Source: Schlesneria sp.
Lineage (GTDB): Bacteria > Planctomycetota > Planctomycetia > Planctomycetales > Planctomycetaceae
Length of the DNA: 64,000 nt
Reading direction: 5' to 3'
Assembly (NCBI GenBank): GCA_028291515.1
Contig: JAQGHU010000033.1
Coordinates: forward strand, 1-64,000
This document shows, piece by piece, positions 6,690 to 46,703 of the stretch. The position numbers and the translations under genes are program-made. Below the pieces are notes generated by a model, which saw nothing but the letters and a program-made list of their open reading frames with translations, was not told the origin of the DNA and made no database searches. Numbering within the stretch: position 1 is the first letter of the stretch; every line of letters starts with the position of its first letter.

Positions 6690-7094
6690 GACGGCTGATC
6701 TGCGCTGGGCTCATCATTGCATTTGATGATTCATCGGGTTTCCCGAGCGCTTTTATCAGGCGGCAACGCTCCATGTCTGTGCGCACAAGGCTGCACAAGG
6801 GGTTGCGTGTACACCTTTCGATCACGTTGGGGATCGCTCAATTCTGAGAATCCATGTTCGTCTTACCGAAGCCATAAGCCATATCTTCGGATATCACTTT
6901 CGCATTTCCGAACACGAAATACGCATGCCGACATCTTCTGCGGATTACGTTGATCAGTTCGTTACCGCTGTTCGCCCCTTGGGCATATCAGTTGCTTCAT
7001 CTGAATTTCAGAGGACGCGGGTCAAAGGAATTTCTTCTCCTTTCCAGCGTCGCTGGTCTCGAATCATCTTTTCTGTTTTATGGAAGCACGAATC
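6690..7094 (+). promoter_or_regulatory. conserved leader of DUF1559 copy 1, multiple hairpins
   Basis: About 400 non-coding bases upstream of the first DUF1559 gene that recur, clearly related, at 8682-9084 upstream of the second. Several short hairpins are visible: CGATC/GATCG near 6818, ATTCT/AGAAT near 6840, TTCG-TCTTAC-CGAA near 6858, ATATC-TTCG-GATAT at 6881-6894 (a UUCG tetraloop), TTCG-CATTTC-CGAA near 6900, and CCGACA/TGCGG near 6930. It probably contains the promoter and a structured 5' untranslated region. No known riboswitch class is recognised. Confidence 0.55.
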
Positions 7095-8042
<948 letters not shown>

Positions 8043-8681: not shown

Positions 8682-9084
8682 GGCGGCTGATCTGTGCTGG
8701 GCTCGTCATTGCGTTTGATGATTTCATCGGACTTGCCAAGCCCTTTAATCGGGCGTTAACGCCGCAAGTGTGCGCGCACGAGGTGGTCCAGACGGATGCG
8801 TGAACACCTTTCGATCACGTTTGGATTCGCTCAATTTTGAGAATCCGAGTTCGTCTTGCCGAAGCCTCAACTCATATCTTCGGATATCACGTTCGCATTT
8901 CCGAACGCGAAATACGCAGGCCGACAGCTTGTGCGGATTGAGTTGATCAGTTCGTTGCCGTAGTCCGTCCCGTGGGCATATCAGTTGCTTCACTTGAACT
9001 CCGGAGGGCGCGGATCGAAGGGATCTCTCCTTATGCATCGTTGCTGGTCCGTGTCATTTTGTCTGTTCTATGGAAACACGAACA
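8682..9084 (+). promoter_or_regulatory. conserved leader of DUF1559 copy 2, multiple hairpins
   Basis: The second copy of the leader at 6690-7094, offset by about 1,992 bases. The UUCG hairpin is kept exactly (ATATC-TTCG-GATAT, 8874-8887), as are the TTCG/CGAA and CCGACA/TGCGG stems. Many differences from copy 1 fall in loops or between the hairpins. No gene is supported in the interval. Confidence 0.55.
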
Positions 9085-10038
9085 ATGCGAGTACGTCGAC
9101 GAGGGTTTACACTGATTGAGTTGCTGGTGGTGATTGCCATCATCGCTGTGTTGATTGCATTACTGTTGCCGGCTGTTCAGCAAGCCCGCGAAGCGGCTCG
9201 CCGCACTCAGTGCAAGAACAATATGAAGCAACTGGGCCTGGCCCTGCACAACTACCATGACATTTACGATCAACTGCCCTTGGGTGCGTTGAACAGACAC
9301 AACTGGCGAACCGCCGTGCTGCCGATGCTGGATCAAGGCGCAGCGTACACTCAACTGTCATTCGTGTCGGGTGGTTTTAATGGTGACGCTAACCCCGCAG
9401 ATGCGAATACCCCGATTCTGAAAAACTGGAAAGTCGCGGCCTACATCTGTCCGTCGAGTCCGCTGGATACGAATCCCAACTATGGCGGCTGGAATCCAAA
9501 TCGCTACCAAGGACACCACTATGCGGCGGTGGGGGGAGCCTATAATGCCGGGTTCGGCAACTGCAGACAATTGTATGGAATTATGTGTGACAATGGTGCC
9601 ATGGAGATCAATGTCAAACATCGCCTGGCCGACATCACGGACGGATCGAGTAACGTGATGCTCGTCGCGGAGCAATCAAACAAAGTCAAGTACACAGCGA
9701 CTTTGAGTTGGGAGTTCTCCGACGGGAAAACACAGGGTGTGGGTGGTATGAAAGGTGGCTGGGGAGGTCCTGGGGATACGAATACCTACTCGAACACAGG
9801 TAGCAGTACGATCCCAGGCATTTCGCCTGTGGTTTACGGACCGAATGCGAGCTGCGGGGATTCGTTCGGGTGTGGACTAGTCTACTGTGCCTCGAACAAT
9901 TTCGCTTCGGCTCATACGGGCGGCATTCACACGATGATGGGCGATGGCTCCGTCAAGTTCATCTCCGACAACATCGATCTGACGACGTTCAAACGAGCAG
10001 CCATGCGAGCTGACGGCAACCCGATCAGCCTGGACTAG
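9085..10038 (+). CDS. DUF1559 pseudopilin-like protein, copy 2
   Basis: A 317-residue paralogue of the 7095 gene, alike over its whole length. It has the pilin-type N-terminus ([19 protein letters not shown]), the [17 protein letters not shown] block and the C-terminal [20 protein letters not shown] motif. The start is ATG 9085, with GGAA nine bases upstream, the same arrangement as copy 1. The most variable stretch is the middle, around residues 210-260, where surface-exposed residues would be expected. A strong rho-independent terminator follows 17 bases after the stop, which copy 1 lacks. Confidence 0.92.
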
Positions 10039-11049: not shown

Positions 11050-11658
11050 ATGGCGAAACCGCTGGTGTTTCACTTTGGCGATGGCGACTTTGCGTTCGGC
11101 ATCAGCAAAGTCGATCGCAGTCGGCTGTATGGCTATAAGGACGTGGAAGTTCTGGACGAGAAGGGGCGTCGGTGCGAACTGGCGACCTTGGCCGGAGACG
11201 GCCACACGGTCATCGGTCGCGGGGGGTCGAGCTTTACTCAATTGACCGTTGACGGTGAGTGGTGCGACAAGGGAACCTTGAAGCCGGTCGACATCCACGG
11301 GAACGAGATCACGCCAGTCGCCTCGTCGTATAGTGCTCCCGTCCCGCTGGCCGACCCGACGACGGTGGCCGATTACCTGCAGCACAACATTCGGCTGGTC
11401 TATCTGCTCGAACCCGAAGGGGACGCCTCCCCGTTATATGAGCAGCTCAAGCAAGGATCGATCTTCAAGTTTCCCTATAGTTATCGCGGCGGGCTGGAAG
11501 CGGATGCCGGGTTCCTGATTCAAGGGGCGGACGGCAACTTCTTCATGGCGGTGGGCAATCCGACTCGCGTCGAATTCAGCGGCCCGACTCAGGTTTCGGC
11601 CGTCGAAGAAGAATCTGAAATGGATGAATCCGATCTGATGGACTTCGATATGATTTGA
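11050..11658 (+). CDS. hypothetical protein in a DNA ligase cassette
   Basis: A 202-residue soluble protein with an acidic tail (EEESEMDESDLMDFDMI). The start ATG 11050 has AGGTGG at good spacing. The first half has a compact beta-rich motif (SKVDRSRLYGYKDVEVLDEK, then GRRCELATLAGDGHTVIGRG) that looks like a defined domain. No catalytic motif, membrane segment or signal peptide is seen. It is followed in the same direction by a second unknown gene and a ligase-like gene, so it may be a partner or regulator of the ligase. Family not recognised. Confidence 0.82.
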   Translation: MAKPLVFHFGDGDFAFGISKVDRSRLYGYKDVEVLDEKGRRCELATLAGDGHTVIGRGGSSFTQLTVDGEWCDKGTLKPVDIHGNEITPVASSYSAPVPLADPTTVADYLQHNIRLVYLLEPEGDASPLYEQLKQGSIFKFPYSYRGGLEADAGFLIQGADGNFFMAVGNPTRVEFSGPTQVSAVEEESEMDESDLMDFDMI

Positions 11659-11734
11659 TCTCGTCATTGATCAGGCAACTTGAGCAAGGCGGCGGAAAAC
11701 GGCAAGGTGGCCAGAGACAACCAGGACATGTGAC

Positions 11735-11759
11735 AGGCCGGACGCGCTCCGTCTGGCCT
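11735..11759 (+). promoter_or_regulatory. hairpin upstream of the second cassette gene
   Basis: A 10-bp stem (AGGCCGGACG / CGTCTGGCCT, one G-U pair) with a 5-base loop lies 19 bases before ATG 11779. There is no U-run after it, so it is more likely a processing or translation-control hairpin than a terminator. Confidence 0.5.
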
Positions 11760-11778
11760 TCCTCACCAAGGGTCGACC

Positions 11779-12501
11779 ATGCCGGAAATCAACATCAGCG
11801 ACAGTGGCGGGCGCGATGCGTTTGTCGCAACGCAAAGTGTGGGGACCACACTGAAAGTGCGTTGGATCGACGGTCAAAAGCGACAGGTGAACAGTGCTCG
11901 CCTGCTGAAAGCTCCCGTCGCCAATGACATCGAAGCCCTGCGGATTCAGTTCGGTGAACTGAACGACGTCGGCAAGGCGCTGATCGAGTCCGATCCGGAA
12001 GTCGATCTGGAAAGCACCGGACGGTTTCTCAGCGATACCTCGAGAGTTTATATCGACTCTGATCGCAAGGTTGTCCACAAGGTGCAGTTCTTCGAGGTCG
12101 TGCGAAACCCGGACGGATCTGTTCGCGAACGCCGGCCTCGCAAGATCATGGAGACCAATCTGGACGGCGAACAACCACTGCGATGGTCCGGCGTCTACAT
12201 CAAACGCGAACAGGCCATTCGCAAGTTCGTGTTCGTCAGCAAGGTCCAACTGAATCACACCAATGGGCTGACGTACGACTTTCTGTATCGCATGGCTCAA
12301 GAGTTGGAAGCCAAAGACAGTCTGATGTTGCTGGGGGCCGGACCCAAATCGAATCAGCCGCTGATCGTGCGGCGTGGCGGATCGCCCTATCGCGGCTTCC
12401 TGGAAGGCCGCACGCAAGGCGACAAGTACGCCTTGATCCTTCACTTCTCGGATCTGGAACTGAAAGCTCCCGCCGCCGTTCCCACGGAGACCGACGCATG
12501 A
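11779..12501 (+). CDS. hypothetical protein, ligase-cassette partner
   Basis: A 240-residue soluble protein without a signal peptide or membrane segment; AAGGG lies ahead of the ATG. Its C-terminal part (AIRKFVFVSKVQLNHTNGLT, then YDFLYRMAQEL and YALILHFSDLELK) resembles, in order and spacing, the segment after the OB fold in the downstream ligase (MVRKFLMWRTHK, then FVVHFTDFSPNRKDALAREL). That suggests a shared accessory domain. The stop overlaps the ligase start (ATGA at 12498-12501), which points to translational coupling and equal expression. Family not recognised. Confidence 0.82.
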   Translation: MPEINISDSGGRDAFVATQSVGTTLKVRWIDGQKRQVNSARLLKAPVANDIEALRIQFGELNDVGKALIESDPEVDLESTGRFLSDTSRVYIDSDRKVVHKVQFFEVVRNPDGSVRERRPRKIMETNLDGEQPLRWSGVYIKREQAIRKFVFVSKVQLNHTNGLTYDFLYRMAQELEAKDSLMLLGAGPKSNQPLIVRRGGSPYRGFLEGRTQGDKYALILHFSDLELKAPAAVPTETDA

Positions 12502-14177
12502 GCGCTGCTGTTCTGGATAAATCACGTGTTGAGATTCTGCTGGGTCACTACGGCACCGCATCGGCGACGGCACTCACCGACAACACCCTGCTCCCCAAGG
12601 TGCAGGAATACCGGCGCCTGGCCAGCGGTCGCATGCAGCCGCTCGATCGCGACGGGATCGCACACAAGATCCCAGCGGGTGAATACCACGTCAGCCGCAA
12701 GGTTGATGGCGAATTCACTGTGCTCGCGTTTCGCGATGGGATGGCGTTCAGCATCAATCCCGGGGGGACCGTTCGCGTCGGCTTGCCCTGTCTGGAAGAA
12801 GCGGCCAAGCTGCTGAGCAAAGCGGGCGTGCATGAAGCGTTGATTGCCGGTGAACTGTATGTCGTGCGGGAAGATACCGGTCGGCCGCGCGTACACGACG
12901 TCTGCACGGTGGCCCGGAATCCTCAATCGGCTGGCGATCTGAAGAAGCTGCGATTCGCCGCCTTCGATGTGATGAGCAAAGACAGCACGGTCATCAGCCA
13001 GCCGTTCACAGAAACCTGGAAGCTGATTCAGAAATGGTTCGGTCACGGCGACCTTGTGCACGCGGTGGAAGCGAAGACGGTCAAAACAGTCGATGAGATC
13101 CAGAAGCAGTTTCAAGTCTGGGTCGTCGATGAAGGGGCGGAGGGACTAGTCGTTCGCAGCGACGCGGCCGGGCAGTTCAAGATCAAACCCCGGCACACGC
13201 TGGATCTGGCGGTCTTGGGCTACACCGAATCAACCGACGATCGCCACGGGATGCTGCACGATCTGCTGCTGGGTGTGAAACGCGCCGACAAGACGCTGCA
13301 GGTGCTGGGTCGAGTGGGCGGCGGCTTCACCGATGATCAGCGTCGTGAAATGCTCAGTGATCTGAAGGACATGGCGGTCGACAGCGAGTACGCCGAAGTG
13401 AACGGTGACAATGTCGCATACCAGATGGTGAACCCTGAATGGGTGATGGAAATCAGTTGCCTGGATCTGCTCTCCAGCACGACTCGCGGCGGCACGATCA
13501 ATCGCATGGTGCTGGATTATCACAACAACGGTTCGCGCGGCTATCACGTCGTGACTAAGCTGCCACTGGCCACGATCATCTCGCCTCAGTTCGTACGTCG
13601 ACGCGAAGACAAACATGTGCGGCCCGAAGATTGCGGCGTCACGCAGGTGTCGAACATCGTCGAAGTGCCATTGATTGATCGAGACGCCAGGCAATTGACA
13701 CTGCCGGTCAGCGAGATCTTGCGACGGGAAGTCTTCACGAAGGACCTCAAGGGCCAGACGATGGTCCGCAAGTTCCTGATGTGGCGGACTCACAAAGAAA
13801 CCGCCAGCGATGAATTCCCCGCGTTTGTCGTTCACTTCACCGACTTCAGCCCCAATCGCAAAGACGCGCTGGCGCGAGAGCTGAGGGTGTCGAATTCTCA
13901 ACTGCAGATCGAGCAGCTTTGGGATGTGCTGAAGACAGATAACATCAAAGCGGGCTGGAATGCGGTGGGAGCAACAGCCGCCCCAATGCCAGAGAAGCCG
14001 GTCGCCGTGGCAGAGGCTGCTGCCGAAGTACCTGCGCCGAAAGCCAGCAAGAAGAAAGTCGCCAAGGTGGAACCTGCGGCTGTCGAAGTAACTCCCGTCG
14101 AGGCAGAGGCTGCCCCGGTGAAGAAGCCGACAAAGAAAGCAGCCGTAAAAAAGACTACCAAGAAAAAGGCCGAGTAA
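12498..14177 (+). CDS. ATP-dependent DNA ligase-like protein with basic tail
   Basis: A 559-residue protein. The nucleotidyltransferase motifs are visible in order: K68-V-D-G-E (motif I, the adenylated lysine), the IAGELYV glutamate near 119, FAAFDVM near 154 (motif III), EGLVVR at 215-220 (motif IV) and FKIKPR at 227-232 (motif V). An OB-fold-like part follows (LLLGVKRADKTLQVLGRVGG; then FVRRREDKHVRPEDC). After that comes a unique domain of about 110 residues and a Lys/Ala/Pro-rich tail (KKPTKKAAVKKTTKKKAE) like histone H1-type tails, likely to bind nucleic acid. ATG 12498 overlaps the upstream stop. The conserved lysine and divalent-metal motifs suggest activity. The substrate is not known; a DNA repair role is inference. 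Confidence 0.87.
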   Translation: MSAAVLDKSRVEILLGHYGTASATALTDNTLLPKVQEYRRLASGRMQPLDRDGIAHKIPAGEYHVSRKVDGEFTVLAFRDGMAFSINPGGTVRVGLPCLEEAAKLLSKAGVHEALIAGELYVVREDTGRPRVHDVCTVARNPQSAGDLKKLRFAAFDVMSKDSTVISQPFTETWKLIQKWFGHGDLVHAVEAKTVKTVDEIQKQFQVWVVDEGAEGLVVRSDAAGQFKIKPRHTLDLAVLGYTESTDDRHGMLHDLLLGVKRADKTLQVLGRVGGGFTDDQRREMLSDLKDMAVDSEYAEVNGDNVAYQMVNPEWVMEISCLDLLSSTTRGGTINRMVLDYHNNGSRGYHVVTKLPLATIISPQFVRRREDKHVRPEDCGVTQVSNIVEVPLIDRDARQLTLPVSEILRREVFTKDLKGQTMVRKFLMWRTHKETASDEFPAFVVHFTDFSPNRKDALARELRVSNSQLQIEQLWDVLKTDNIKAGWNAVGATAAPMPEKPVAVAEAAAEVPAPKASKKKVAKVEPAAVEVTPVEAEAAPVKKPTKKAAVKKTTKKKAE

Positions 14178-14183
14178 GTCTTC

Positions 14184-14473
14184 AGGTGAGCCGCGCTGCG
14201 TCAGCACGCGGACCGACGAACGACTCGAGACTGCAAAAGGCGAAGAGTTTGAAACACAGAGGCACAGAGGAAACAGAGAATCAGGCATAGAAAAACCAGA
14301 AGGTGATACTGTCACCCTCCTCGCCTTCTCTGTTATCTCTGCGCCTCTGTGTTTCAAACTCGTATTCTCTGCGCCGGGCGACGGAACATTCGTATCAGCC
14401 TTGATTCGAGCGTCTCGTTTTTTCGTAGACCTGTGTCAACTGGGTCCGCGTGCTGACGCAGCGCGGCTCACCT
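14184..14473. repeat. composite inverted-repeat element B, perfect 31-bp termini
   Basis: The termini at 14184-14214 and 14443-14473 are perfect 31-bp inverted repeats of the same REP-like sequence as element A. Inside are arms at 14245-14280 and 14326-14361 (33 of 36 bases paired, containing AACACAGAGGCACAGAGG). It fills the gap between two converging genes and may also serve as their terminator. No protein is encoded. Confidence 0.9.
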
Positions 14474-14497
14474 GGGACGCATTTGCGAGGCCTCTCG

Positions 14498-17137
14498 CTA
14501 CTTCGTCGGCTCGATCATCACTGGCGTCTGTTCCGCGTGCACCAGCGACTGAGCTGATTCGAGCTGCGTTTTGAGGTAGTCGAACAGCTCTTGCGCCGTC
14601 AGATGCAGATCTCGATTCGTGTCGGCGGCTCCTTGGATTGCTTCGGCCAAGGTCCAGGCAAATAAGCTGCGACCTTTTTCGTCCCAGGTCCGTGACTGCT
14701 GACCCTGATCGCACGAAATGATCACCGTGGTCGACTTCAGCGGCGTTTTCAGGCCATCGATCAATGCCTTGCCTGCCACTTGCCGTTTGACATCTTTACC
14801 TGTGCCGGGTGGTGTCACATCCAGGATCAGCACCTTGTCGTTGGCGGGGCAGTCATTCAGTTTCTCGGCCAGCCAATCGAGCGACACGCCGGAGTTGGCC
14901 ATGTTGTCGAAGCGGAAGTCCTTCGGGGCCAGGTAGACCGTCTTGTCATCTCCCTGATAGGCATGGCCTGAAATGGAGATCAAGACCTGCATTTGCGGGC
15001 GTGCGCTACTTAGTGTTTCGGTGAGTTGTCTCTCCCAGTCCTTCCGAGTCCCATCGACGATGAGCGCGCCTCGCTGATCGGAAACGGCATAACGCGACAA
15101 GAGCGCCGACTGGATCAGCCGCGCATCATTGAGGGCCGTTTTCAAAGGGGAGAGCGATGAATCGGTGTAGGATTGAGTTCCCAGAACGACGGTCCAGCGA
15201 TCGGTCTGAGCGGGGCGTCGAGCGTCGATCGTGGTGGCGGTCAACGCTCCGTCGGGCATCTCAGAGTAAGCGACTCGCACGTTGTCGAACTGACGCAGGT
15301 CCGGCAGCTTGACCTTGTCGAGAGCTAACGTGATCTCGGTCTTCGGGTTCGTGGTGAGCGTATGTCGCTCACCATTCGCGAGCGAGACGGTCAGTTCATT
15401 CGTCTTGGGATCGACGGACTGCACGGCACCATCGAACTGCTGGCTGCGGGTCGCGGTGACTTCCACGATTTCGGTATCGTGCTGGATCGAGACACGATCG
15501 CCCGGCTTCAGCGCGGCGGCGGTCAGTGGCATATTTTCAGAAGTAGTCGAACCGTTGATCGAGACCTTGCACTTGGCATCGACCGGCAGCTTCAGAGAAC
15601 TGGCTGCCGCACCCTGGCCAATCTGGATCGAGAGCATCGCCTGATCGGGATCGTAACCGGCAACCGATCCAACTGTCGTGACGACTCGCCGTGCGTTCAA
15701 TGAATTGAGGACGCGTCCGCGGGTTTGACCCGGTTCCGACAAATGGGTGATGTCCAGCCGATCGCCATGCTGCAGGTCACGGAGTTCGATTGTCTGGCCA
15801 TTCAGTTTCATCACGGCGCTCTTGGGGACTCGCACCGGCAAGTCATCGCGCGTGTTCCCTTCTTCCATCGACAGAATCAGCCGCGAATCATGCAGCAGTA
15901 GTTCTTTCAGCGTGCCATGCGTCGGGACCGGCCGGTCGACGATCATGTTCACTACTAGATCCGACTGACTCTTATCGACATCCATCTCGACATGATCGCC
16001 CGGCTTCAGTTCTCGCAGCAGAATGTTCTTTTTGTCGTTCAGCAGGAAGATGCGTTGTTTGCGAGGCACCTTGAATGGTTCGAGTGCCCCGGTGTTCAAG
16101 TCCTGCACGACGAATTCGTTCTTGTCGCCATTCACTTCGCGAATCAGCCCGTGGGCCTTCTGGCCGGGGCCCTGATTCGCTTTGGAGTCCGGCCACAGCA
16201 TCAGGCCGCTCATCAGCACCGAGGCTCCGAGCGCGGCGGCGGCCATGTAGGTGCGCCGATTGTTGTTCTTGCTCGGTTCGTCCAAGACCATCTCGCCGGT
16301 TTGTCCACCAACGAGTTTGAGATCGATCTGCAGATCGGACAGTGCTTCGTCGGCCGTTTTGTATCGCAGTGCCTGATCTTTTTGGGTCAGCTTTTGAACG
16401 ACCTTGGCCAAGTCAGGCGGCACCCCTTCCAGAACGCGACCGATCTCGGGCAACCTTCGATCGGGGGCAGCGTGCCACATCATCCAGGCGACTTGCTGGT
16501 TGCGTCCCTTCGCATTCAGGCCCGGGAACAACTCTTCGAAATTCCCGCCGCACATCAGGTCGTAAGCGGAGAAACCGAGTGAATACAGATCGCTGGCCGG
16601 TCCGACATCGCCAAAGTCATCAGACACCGTTTCCGGTGCCATGTACTTCGTCGTGCCCTTCAGCAGACTGCCATCGACCGTCGCCACACGACAGGCCAGA
16701 CCAAAGTCGCCCAATTTGACACGGCGCCGCGCATCGATCATCAGATTGGCGGGCTTGATGTCGCCGTGGATCACCCCTTGTGCGTGGAGGTACTTAAGAG
16801 CTCTCAAGACGTGAGCCAGGGTGGCTCGTAACGCTCGCAGATCGATCTGGCGACCCGACAATCGCTCGGCCAGACTCGACTGCATCAGTTCCATCACCAG
16901 CCAGCCTCGTTCTTTGACGATGTCGAAGATGGTGACGATGTTGGGATGCTGCAGAGACGCCAGCAACTGGGCTTCCTGCCAGAAGCGTTCCAGTCGCTTG
17001 GGATCGTCGACAAACTCCTGGTGCAGCTGCTTGATCGCGACTTCGCGACCGAGTTCGGTATCTCGAGCCCGGTACACAGTCGCAAAGCTGCCCGAGCCGA
17101 TTTTTTCGAGAATTTTATAACGCGTATCGAGCGACAC
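14498..17137 (-). CDS. Ser/Thr protein kinase fused to beta repeats and a caspase-like domain
   Basis: An 879-residue membrane protein. Residues 9-270 form a Hanks-type kinase: glycine loop G14-SGSFATV, Lys36 (VAIK), H-G-D-I-K-P-A-N at 124-131 (Gly replaces the Arg of HRD), DFG 144-146 and APE 167-169. One membrane helix lies near 296-315. Residues 330-645 hold about five repeats of a beta module (for example ELKPGDHVEMDV) like DUF5666. Residues 648-875 resemble a caspase-like (C14) domain: His725 is present in SGHA, but the catalytic Cys position is Thr775 in LILDVTPPG, so it is probably not a protease. The start is GTG 17137, with a GAGAT-type site. The kinase side should be cytoplasmic and the caspase-like part extracytoplasmic. 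Kinase assignment is firm; the rest is inference. Confidence 0.9.
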   Translation of the reverse strand: MSLDTRYKILEKIGSGSFATVYRARDTELGREVAIKQLHQEFVDDPKRLERFWQEAQLLASLQHPNIVTIFDIVKERGWLVMELMQSSLAERLSGRQIDLRALRATLAHVLRALKYLHAQGVIHGDIKPANLMIDARRRVKLGDFGLACRVATVDGSLLKGTTKYMAPETVSDDFGDVGPASDLYSLGFSAYDLMCGGNFEELFPGLNAKGRNQQVAWMMWHAAPDRRLPEIGRVLEGVPPDLAKVVQKLTQKDQALRYKTADEALSDLQIDLKLVGGQTGEMVLDEPSKNNNRRTYMAAAALGASVLMSGLMLWPDSKANQGPGQKAHGLIREVNGDKNEFVVQDLNTGALEPFKVPRKQRIFLLNDKKNILLRELKPGDHVEMDVDKSQSDLVVNMIVDRPVPTHGTLKELLLHDSRLILSMEEGNTRDDLPVRVPKSAVMKLNGQTIELRDLQHGDRLDITHLSEPGQTRGRVLNSLNARRVVTTVGSVAGYDPDQAMLSIQIGQGAAASSLKLPVDAKCKVSINGSTTSENMPLTAAALKPGDRVSIQHDTEIVEVTATRSQQFDGAVQSVDPKTNELTVSLANGERHTLTTNPKTEITLALDKVKLPDLRQFDNVRVAYSEMPDGALTATTIDARRPAQTDRWTVVLGTQSYTDSSLSPLKTALNDARLIQSALLSRYAVSDQRGALIVDGTRKDWERQLTETLSSARPQMQVLISISGHAYQGDDKTVYLAPKDFRFDNMANSGVSLDWLAEKLNDCPANDKVLILDVTPPGTGKDVKRQVAGKALIDGLKTPLKSTTVIISCDQGQQSRTWDEKGRSLFAWTLAEAIQGAADTNRDLHLTAQELFDYLKTQLESAQSLVHAEQTPVMIEPTK

Positions 17138-45666: not shown

Positions 45667-46703
45667 ATGCGAACGAATTTGAATGCCACTCGCCGCAGGG
45701 GAATCACGCTCGTCGACGTGATCGTGGTTCTCATCATTGTCGCGTTGTTCTTGGGGTTGCTCATTCCGTCCATTCTTGGCGCCCGCGAATCTGCACGCAG
45801 AAAACAGTGCAAGAATAATCTCAAGCAGATTGGGCTGGCGCTGCACAACTATCACGACACGTTCAACACATTTCCTTCTGGATATGTGCTGGGAGAAAAC
45901 AGCCCTTACCTCGGTTGGGGTTGGGGAATCATGATCACGCCGTATCTGGATGCCAGCCCATACTTCAGTCAGATCTCTGGACGGTTTGGGAATGGCCTTC
46001 AGCAGGAGTTTACTGCGGCGGATTTGAATCCGATTTATGCCGTTTACAAATGCCCTTCGTCGCCTGCGACAAACACGATCCCGCATGCCAGCGTCGTCAC
46101 GACGGATGTTGACGAGTGGCAGGTCACACCAGGAACCACCGACGTGCCAGACACGTTCTCACGAATCACCTACTTCGGTGTCGCGGGATATCTCAAGGAG
46201 AGCGTTGGCGGGATCGCTGCTGATGCTTCTGGTGAACCACCCACCGTCGAGCCATTCGTCAATGCCGGAAGTTTGGGCAACATCGGAATCCCGTTCTCGC
46301 TGGAACACCGCTATTGCGACCAGCGGAACTTTAAGGGAGTTTTTGGTCAGAACAGTCGGATCAGACTGAAAGACATCCAAGATGGATCTTCAAACGTGAT
46401 CATGGTTGGTGAGCGATATGTCCCGCGAAATACAGGTGCGAACAGCATCGGGCATGGCACGTGGATCGGTGTTCCAGACTGTACCACTGCGGCAGGATTA
46501 GCGATGTCATTGGGAGACACCAGCATTCGCCTGAATGCTGGTGCGAGAACGCGAGCCCAGACAACCGGCTTCGGCAGCCACCATACTGGCGGAGCCCATT
46601 TTTGCTCGCTGATGGATCTGTTCGATTCGTCGCCGATAATCTTGGGATCAGTGCTTATCGCATGATCTCCGTGATCGACGACGATCCCGATGGTGAGTTT
46701 TGA
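45667..46703 (+). CDS. DUF1559 pseudopilin-like protein, frame-disrupted near the C-terminus
   Basis: The gene encodes a pilin-type N-terminus (RRRGITLVDVIVVLIIVALF), the block [17 protein letters not shown] and a C-terminal HHTGGAHF that should be followed by LLADGSVRFVADN. In the sequence the frame shifts: as read it ends at 46665 with a foreign tail. Stepping back one base at the T5 run 46599-46603 restores LLADGSVRFVADNLGISAYR and the natural stop at 46703. Either a base is missing, or the ribosome or polymerase slips here. The full product would be 345 residues. It is the third DUF1559 gene of the window, without the leader seen at 6.7 kb. Confidence 0.85.

Follow-up and report, generated by a model that had tools for sequence, protein, structure and literature searches.

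The three-gene ligase locus of Schlesneria sp.

We analyzed a stretch of 64,000 nucleotides from Schlesneria sp. (contig JAQGHU010000033.1 of assembly GCA_028291515.1, positions 1 to 64,000, forward strand), hereafter the window, which belongs to a genome of 8.6 Mb in 119 contigs (G000). The subject of the analysis is a trio of genes at positions 11050 to 14177, the third of which encodes an ATP-dependent DNA-ligase-type protein, preceded by genes for two proteins that we name KuA and KuB here on the basis of their predicted fold. The trio comprises the following features.

11050-11658, + strand: KuA, 202-residue product (translation), with a predicted Ku-core fold in its AlphaFold model
11590-11655, + strand: acidic C-terminal tail of KuA, ending in DFDMI (residues 181-202), disordered, with a predicted local distance difference test score (pLDDT) <50
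11779-12501, + strand: KuB, 240-residue product (translation), with a predicted Ku-core fold in its AlphaFold model
12498-12501, + strand: ATGA overlap of the KuB stop and the ligase start, read in the sequence
12498-14177, + strand: ATP-dependent DNA-ligase-type protein of 559 residues (Pfam PF01068 and PF04679; best NCBIfam model TIGR02779, below its cut-off)
12645-13232, + strand: nucleotidyltransferase region of the ligase, bounds approximate (DNA_ligase_A_M at residues 97-232; codon of motif I K68 at 12699-12701)
13245-13613, + strand: OB-type domain of the ligase (residues 250-372; Pfam DNA_ligase_A_C)
13650-13967, + strand: third ligase domain (about residues 385-490), beyond the stretches matched in Pfam and the PDB and conserved among the aligned family members
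13968-14174, + strand: ligase tail rich in Lys and Ala (about residues 491-559), read in the sequence

An earlier note on this DNA, made from its letters alone, had described three genes at these positions, the second and third overlapping by ATGA, and the translations and the bases at the junction agree with that description. The first two proteins were said to lack a family, and both indeed have zero matches in Pfam, NCBIfam, PHROG and PADLOC up to E = 1. Likewise, the note was right about the ligase motifs, about a further domain behind the OB fold and about the Lys/Ala-rich tail, which is not general in the family.

The trio is a conserved unit in multiple phyla

A scan with the KuB alignment, using one genome per species, identified 258 relatives, the best 80 of which (L026-L105) provide all locus counts out of 80 given here; adjacency required the same strand as KuB and a distance of up to 300 bases for KuA or 500 bases for the ligase. 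KuA was adjacent to KuB in 72/80 loci, farther away in 1, past the end of the contig in 4 and missing from 3, and the ligase was adjacent in 70/80, farther away in 7 (one of which, in L043, probably reflects just a too-early open reading frame start) and absent in 3. In 62/80 loci, both partners adjoined KuB and shared its strand. The gene-neighborhood survey that had been proposed as a check finds that KuB homologs mostly adjoin both a ligase and KuA.

By taxon labels assigned from record titles, the best 80 relatives span eight phyla, with 25 loci in Planctomycetota, 19 in Gammaproteobacteria, 16 in Acidobacteriota, 7 in Verrucomicrobiota, 4 in Myxococcota/Deltaproteobacteria, 3 in Cyanobacteriota, 3 in Neomegalonema, 1 each in Chloroflexota and Bacteroidota, and 1 unlabeled. 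The pairwise divergences of KuA, KuB and the ligase correlate (r 0.90-0.91 over 66 shared members, with 0/1000 permutations as high for any pair), which fits genes that were inherited together. The trio is a real, conserved unit. In these analyses L020, L021 and L025, which duplicate L090, L080 and L026, were excluded from the clustering of 83 loci, and the alignments omit short matches (KuA of L075; ligases of L057, L079, L081 and L096) as well as the ligases of L076 and L104.

Of 59 related genomes, only 3, members of one genus, carry KuA, and only these carry KuB; each of the 3 has a close ligase homolog (in one of them, G013, the trio genes lie at contig ends), and a fourth genome has a ligase match only, weak and generic. 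In a sample of 392 genomes from the phylum, 6 were retrieved with a ligase profile of three rows and 7 with a KuB profile of 81 rows, and the six loci that were extracted (five from this sample and that of G011) contain all three genes in identical order. Phage records, which were searched with KuB and the ligase and not with KuA, contained no KuB relative and 2 records with a partial ligase match; viral contigs searched with the ligase yielded no confirmed relative; and plasmid records, searched with the ligase only, gave 10 with a partial match.

Two of these plasmid records hold the same remnant from Sulfurospirillum. On plasmid pSDIE1 of Sulfurospirillum diekertiae (L012:4998-5198), an unannotated 67-codon open stretch, about 2.8 kb from transposase genes, shares 47% identity over about 54 residues with the ligase, and it looks like a decayed ligase copy in another phylum. 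Several loci depart from the compact arrangement. A gene resembling ACT-domain regulators lies between KuB and the ligase in L102:10015-10536, and the same gap holds genes that read as unrelated in L046:10705-14421 and L100:10711-17610. In L099:10711-14278, unrelated-reading genes come after KuB, a ligase not being found in this locus, and the KuB gene of G225 is broken by a frame break in the assembly (L021:9869-10552).

KuA and KuB are predicted to adopt a Ku-core fold

The AlphaFold models of KuB (81 rows; mean pLDDT 80.2, predicted template modeling score [pTM] 0.60) and KuA (73 rows; mean pLDDT 79.7, pTM 0.63) were compared to the PDB using Foldseek. At E<=0.001, KuB had 42 matches and KuA had 18, all of which are by title Ku or Ku-holding complexes of non-homologous end joining (NHEJ) or DNA-PK, and bacterial Ku tops the matches of both models. 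In the NHEJ and DNA-PK complexes, the matched chains appear to be Ku because they share a common aligned range, from residues 245/246 to about 435. The single match of KuB at this threshold in a viral structure library is the Ku of Mycobacterium phage Dylan. With a second aligner, M. tuberculosis Ku (9i91_A) superposed on 170/240 residues of KuB (Z 12.2, root-mean-square deviation [rmsd] 4.4) and on 161/202 residues of KuA (Z 11.1, rmsd 5.8), and bacterial Ku aligned with the two models over 152-172 residues in most rows.

Both models share a strand-strand, long insertion, helix-strand-helix-strand-strand-strand topology. The insertion after strand 2 spans residues 21-105 in KuA and 21 to about 133-142 in KuB, with elements of its own, and occupies what we take to be the position of the Ku bridge. 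On the basis of these models, KuA and KuB likely carry the Ku-core fold. Ku acts as a dimer, in bacteria as a homodimer (PMC12784961; here and below, citations refer to the accessible portions of the papers), and since these loci retain two dissimilar proteins next to each other, KuA and KuB probably pair as a heterodimer.

KuA ends in DFx[MLIV] followed by at most one residue in 64/73 rows, and in a looser form of this motif in 72/73, with a median net charge of -10 over the last 30 residues of the 73 family rows. This acidic tail is likely a docking peptide for an enzyme and resembles docking tails such as that of SSB. A Lys/Arg-rich tail of at least 30 residues was found on 16/80 KuB proteins and on 14/77 related ligases, both KuB and ligase being tailed in one locus only (L038). 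The one long KuB extension that was scanned, in L064, holds a SAM domain.

The third gene encodes an ATP-dependent DNA-ligase-type protein

The 559-residue protein combines the nucleotidyltransferase motifs and the OB domain of ATP-dependent DNA ligases, and no polymerase family was found in it with Pfam or NCBIfam, setting it apart from LigD-type fusions. All 72 family rows match DNA_ligase_A_C and 63/72 match DNA_ligase_A_M; K68, D70, G71, E119, E215, G216, K228 and K230 are invariant in 72/72 aligned members, while 54 of these rows have D at position 157 and 18 have N. The best of the six NCBIfam models matching the protein is TIGR02779, the NHEJ ligase domain. A family profile retrieved 33 PDB sequences at E<=0.001, all named DNA ligases, with the best stretches ending at or before position 324. 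The third domain (about residues 385-490) lies beyond the OB domain, outside the Pfam and PDB matches, and is conserved across the family alignment. Because of its nucleotidyltransferase motifs, the protein would be expected to act in ATP-dependent end sealing.

The earlier note had suggested that this third domain and KuB share one domain, present alone and fused. The strings on which the suggestion was based (RKF followed by YDF/MAQEL, and RKF followed by FTDF/LAREL) are present, but the shared domain was unsupported at the sequence level, as hhalign gave a probability of only 0.7-1.3% between KuB and the C-terminal region of the ligase. A WGR-like third domain, suggested by the motif, was also considered and rejected, WGR not being among the Pfam families listed (25 of 29) for the 72 ligases. 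In one locus (L022:2404-5535), a family ligase is fused to a C-terminal AAA ATPase resembling CDC48/FtsH and is followed by genes that by eye resemble those of type I restriction systems.

Polymerase-type and nuclease genes adjoin the trio in part of the loci

A gene of the AEP type (primase-polymerase family) lies beside the trio in 35/80 loci, on the same strand in 33 (19 upstream, 14 downstream); this count takes in the L080 gene, which is in three broken pieces, and the L060 and L095 genes, which are cut at contig ends. Its occurrence varies by group, with 17/19 loci in Gammaproteobacteria, 13/16 in Acidobacteriota and none of the 7 verrucomicrobial loci, and it was found in 24 of the 45 loci that are flanked by 1.8 kb or more on each side. 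Searched whole, 4/8 planctomycete carriers have an AEP-type match at E<=0.001; the matches of G011 and G167 lie on a contig other than that of the trio. The one AEP-type protein that was scanned (L067) falls in Pfam AEP-TOTE (33.4 bits, cut-off 27), and its C-terminus weakly matches, far below cut-off, the phosphatase model TIGR01689, which we take to be of the HAD type. An Exo_endo_phos gene follows the ligase in 18/80 loci; the nearest model for the one protein scanned (L077) is exodeoxyribonuclease III, below its cut-off. Polymerase, ligase and end-processing enzymes acting with Ku are the parts of LigD-type NHEJ (PMC5663958).

These neighbors also bear on a role in conflict or defense, for instance on invading or damaged phage DNA, instead of housekeeping break repair. 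The assignment of the scanned AEP-type protein to a conflict family (AEP-TOTE) would suit such a role, as would the patchy occurrence of the trio (3/59 relatives), the MoxR, vWA, DUF5682, DUF5691 or DUF4132/WGR genes that adjoin it in three loci, and the type I restriction-like genes in a fourth. However, defense-type neighbors are confined to few loci while the trio and repair-type enzymes recur, the trio has no PADLOC match up to E = 1, and no KuB relative was found in phage records, so that we regard this explanation as highly unlikely.

In detail, scanned neighbors of the trio include AAA_5/MoxR-type, VWA_CoxE and DUF5682 genes in L024:10834-15511 and a DUF5691 gene in L021:655-6917, and in L023:543-6199 two DUF4132 proteins, one of them with WGR, are encoded divergently upstream of it.

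A putative end-joining system with two Ku-like proteins

Taken together, these data suggest that the trio probably constitutes the core of a divergent NHEJ-type system of bacteria, in which the Ku component is probably a heterodimer and the LigD-like enzymes are unfused. On predicted fold and gene content we class it as an NHEJ variant, and outside Pfam Ku and LigD because it does not pass the sequence tests for these families. The earlier proposal of a dedicated repair or sealing cassette with a joint function is well supported by the gene order kept across phyla, the correlated divergence, the polymerase-type and nuclease neighbors in part of the loci and the Ku folds.

In such a system, KuA and KuB, as highly diverged Ku-core proteins, would pair and encircle the broken end of double-stranded DNA, as suggested by their predicted fold, their constant pairing and the known mechanism of Ku. 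The acidic DFxM(I/M/L) tail of KuA would dock an enzyme and the ligase would seal the ends using ATP, its third domain and, in some lineages, the Lys-rich tail on the ligase or KuB perhaps contacting DNA or Ku. In other lineages, the primase-polymerase family protein with its weakly HAD-like C-terminus might fill gaps and clean ends, and the ExoIII-like nuclease might trim them. The window contains the three-gene core alone.

Several observations weigh against this reading, foremost that the link to Ku is one of predicted fold alone. With the 81 KuB and 73 KuA rows, Pfam matches at E<=1 do not include Ku (PF02735) and are scattered and weak (the strongest being PUA_4, E 0.0087, in 6/73 KuA rows); searches of PDB sequences with KuA and KuB profiles return no Ku; and hhalign against 17 canonical Ku gives probabilities of 2.6% for KuB and 0.1% for KuA. 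When 34 profiles are ranked, Ku comes 1st for KuB in local mode and 12th in global mode, and only 29th and 33rd for KuA. Within the models, TM-scores by query length for the PDB Ku matches are 0.38-0.51 with large rmsd, and the insertion is predicted at lower confidence (block-mean pLDDT 55-83 in KuB and 62-78 in KuA up to residue 80). The ligase scores 65.3 bits against TIGR02779, under the curated cut-off of 227.75. An AEP-type gene lies beside just 2/25 planctomycete loci, and a whole-genome search of G000 found no AEP-type match. The same genome has one canonical Ku (contig 75), and among the 392 genomes of the phylum, 47 have canonical Ku, 7 have KuB and 1 has both, which is the chance level. 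Finally, SPOC domains share the Ku barrel and tie with Ku by Z for KuB, and 32/72 family ligases also match Pfam RNA_ligase, less well than the DNA-ligase domains.

The SPOC resemblance raises the alternative that KuA and KuB are SPOC-type adaptors that do not encircle DNA and that scaffold the ligase, with or without the polymerase and nuclease, for gap or base-excision repair, in the manner of mycobacterial LigC/Prim-PolC. SPOC and INTS13/14 domains match the models with Z 8.4-11.6 and rmsd 2.5-4.8, lower than for bacterial Ku (SPOC reaching Z 11.6 for KuB and 9.3 for KuA over about 100 residues), and this alternative would agree with the missing sequence link to Ku and with ExoIII-like and AEP-type genes, which suit excision repair; LigC and Prim-PolC act in mycobacterial base excision repair (PMC5663958). 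Since Z ties for KuB, the separation of Ku from SPOC depends on coverage, Foldseek ranking and the insertion after strand 2. SPOC aligns over 99-109 residues versus 152-172 for bacterial Ku in most rows, the first 50 Foldseek matches listed contain no SPOC chain for either model, and both proteins carry a long insertion that would not fit into SPOC domains, which have about 123-148 residues. We therefore consider SPOC-type adaptors unlikely.

The RNA_ligase matches, in turn, would accord with a ligase that seals RNA or RNA-DNA junctions and with partners that bind structured RNA ends. These matches reach E 1.1e-7 at best, and 4 of the ligases match PNKP_ligase, but the DNA-ligase domains (A_C in 72/72, A_M in 63/72) have better E-values and 33/33 PDB profile matches at E<=0.001 are named DNA ligases, making an RNA-sealing role very improbable.

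Returning to the end-joining reading, we lean slightly towards a broader form of it, in which the trio represents a widespread pathway. Its basis would be an obligate heterodimer whose two Ku subunits diverged anciently, a bacterial counterpart of Ku70/Ku80 hidden by unrecognizable sequence, and with its ligase, primase-polymerase, phosphatase-like and nuclease functions encoded by separate genes it would amount to an unfused LigD. We found no description of the KuA and KuB families among the papers listed in searches of an open-licence library or in the accessible portions of PMC11936186 and PMC7159879. If the reading is true, surveys of bacterial NHEJ with Ku/LigD sequence models miss a second Ku lineage in about eight phyla, and many bacteria may hold a break-repair kit overlooked by standard annotation. 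It would also offer a small, probably heterodimeric Ku whose comparison with Ku70/Ku80 bears on how a homodimeric ring turned asymmetric, and it would add an end-joining kit that could be tested in bacteria without NHEJ. Two protein families of unknown role gain a directly testable function.

Relationship to canonical Ku and other repair systems

Canonical Ku was found in 12 of the 59 related genomes and in neither G011 nor G013. Among the 80 carrier genomes, the completeness of which is not given, it was recognizable in 1 (that of L065). The putative system mostly stands alone, the 1/80 among carriers being only suggestive of an avoidance of Ku; the phylum sample (1 of 7 KuB genomes) presents no departure from chance and does not support avoidance.

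The putative system resembles bacterial Ku-LigD NHEJ (M. tuberculosis, B. subtilis) in its predicted Ku fold, its ATP-dependent ligase, the AEP-type gene in part of the loci and the C-terminal tails on the Ku-like proteins; the C-terminus of bacterial Ku has a conserved minimal part and a variable, basic extended part (PMC9638933). In contrast to the predominantly homodimeric bacterial Ku (PMC1378119, 2006), however, it has two unlike Ku-fold proteins with no Pfam Ku sequence match. Furthermore, its ligase, polymerase-type and nuclease genes are separate, its ligase has an extra domain, and its scanned AEP protein belongs to another Pfam family, AEP-TOTE.

The presence of two distinct Ku-core proteins and one ligase, with the pairing of the former being probable, recalls Ku70/Ku80 and DNA ligase IV, and the alignment of KuB covers residues 246-435 in the chains of Ku complexes. 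Unlike Ku70/Ku80, the proteins here have about 200-240 residues, leaving no room for vWA, SAP and DNA-PKcs-binding parts, with the L064 KuB carrying its SAM domain. Two distinct ku genes occur in one operon in some genomes, for which heterodimers were suggested (PMC1378119), and heterodimers have been speculated for Streptomyces Ku (PMC5124664), but those genes are described as Ku homologs, whereas KuA and KuB match neither Ku nor, detectably, each other by sequence (hhalign 0.6% between the two).

In mycobacterial LigC/Prim-PolC, too, the AEP and the ATP-dependent ligase are encoded separately and work together with excision enzymes (PMC5663958); compared by description only, this system differs in that the accessible portion of that paper names no Ku-like pair for the LigC complex. 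SPOC proteins (PHF3, FPA, SPOCD1) and INTS13/14 have the same beta-barrel fold, without the long insertion after the second strand, and fall outside the first 50 Foldseek matches listed. LigB-type operons are repair operons around an ATP-dependent ligase, with a helicase and a metallophosphoesterase, partners that differ from KuA and KuB; no LigB-named model was among the six NCBIfam models matched by the ligase.

Other features of the window

Directly after the ligase stop lies an element resembling a miniature inverted-repeat transposable element (MITE; window 14183-14474), with perfect 32-bp inverted arms and a nested 36-bp inverted repeat. Similar arms occur at window 3724, 6281 and 6542, and the 21-base arm pattern has 66 matches genome-wide at <=2 mismatches versus 0 for a reversed control. 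By eye, three proteins resemble planctomycete type II pseudopilins (window 7080-8042, 9070-10038 and 45667-46665), two of them directly upstream of the trio. Convergent with the ligase, a gene on the reverse strand (window 14498-17137) encodes a Ser/Thr kinase-like protein with a C-terminal part that by eye appears caspase-like.

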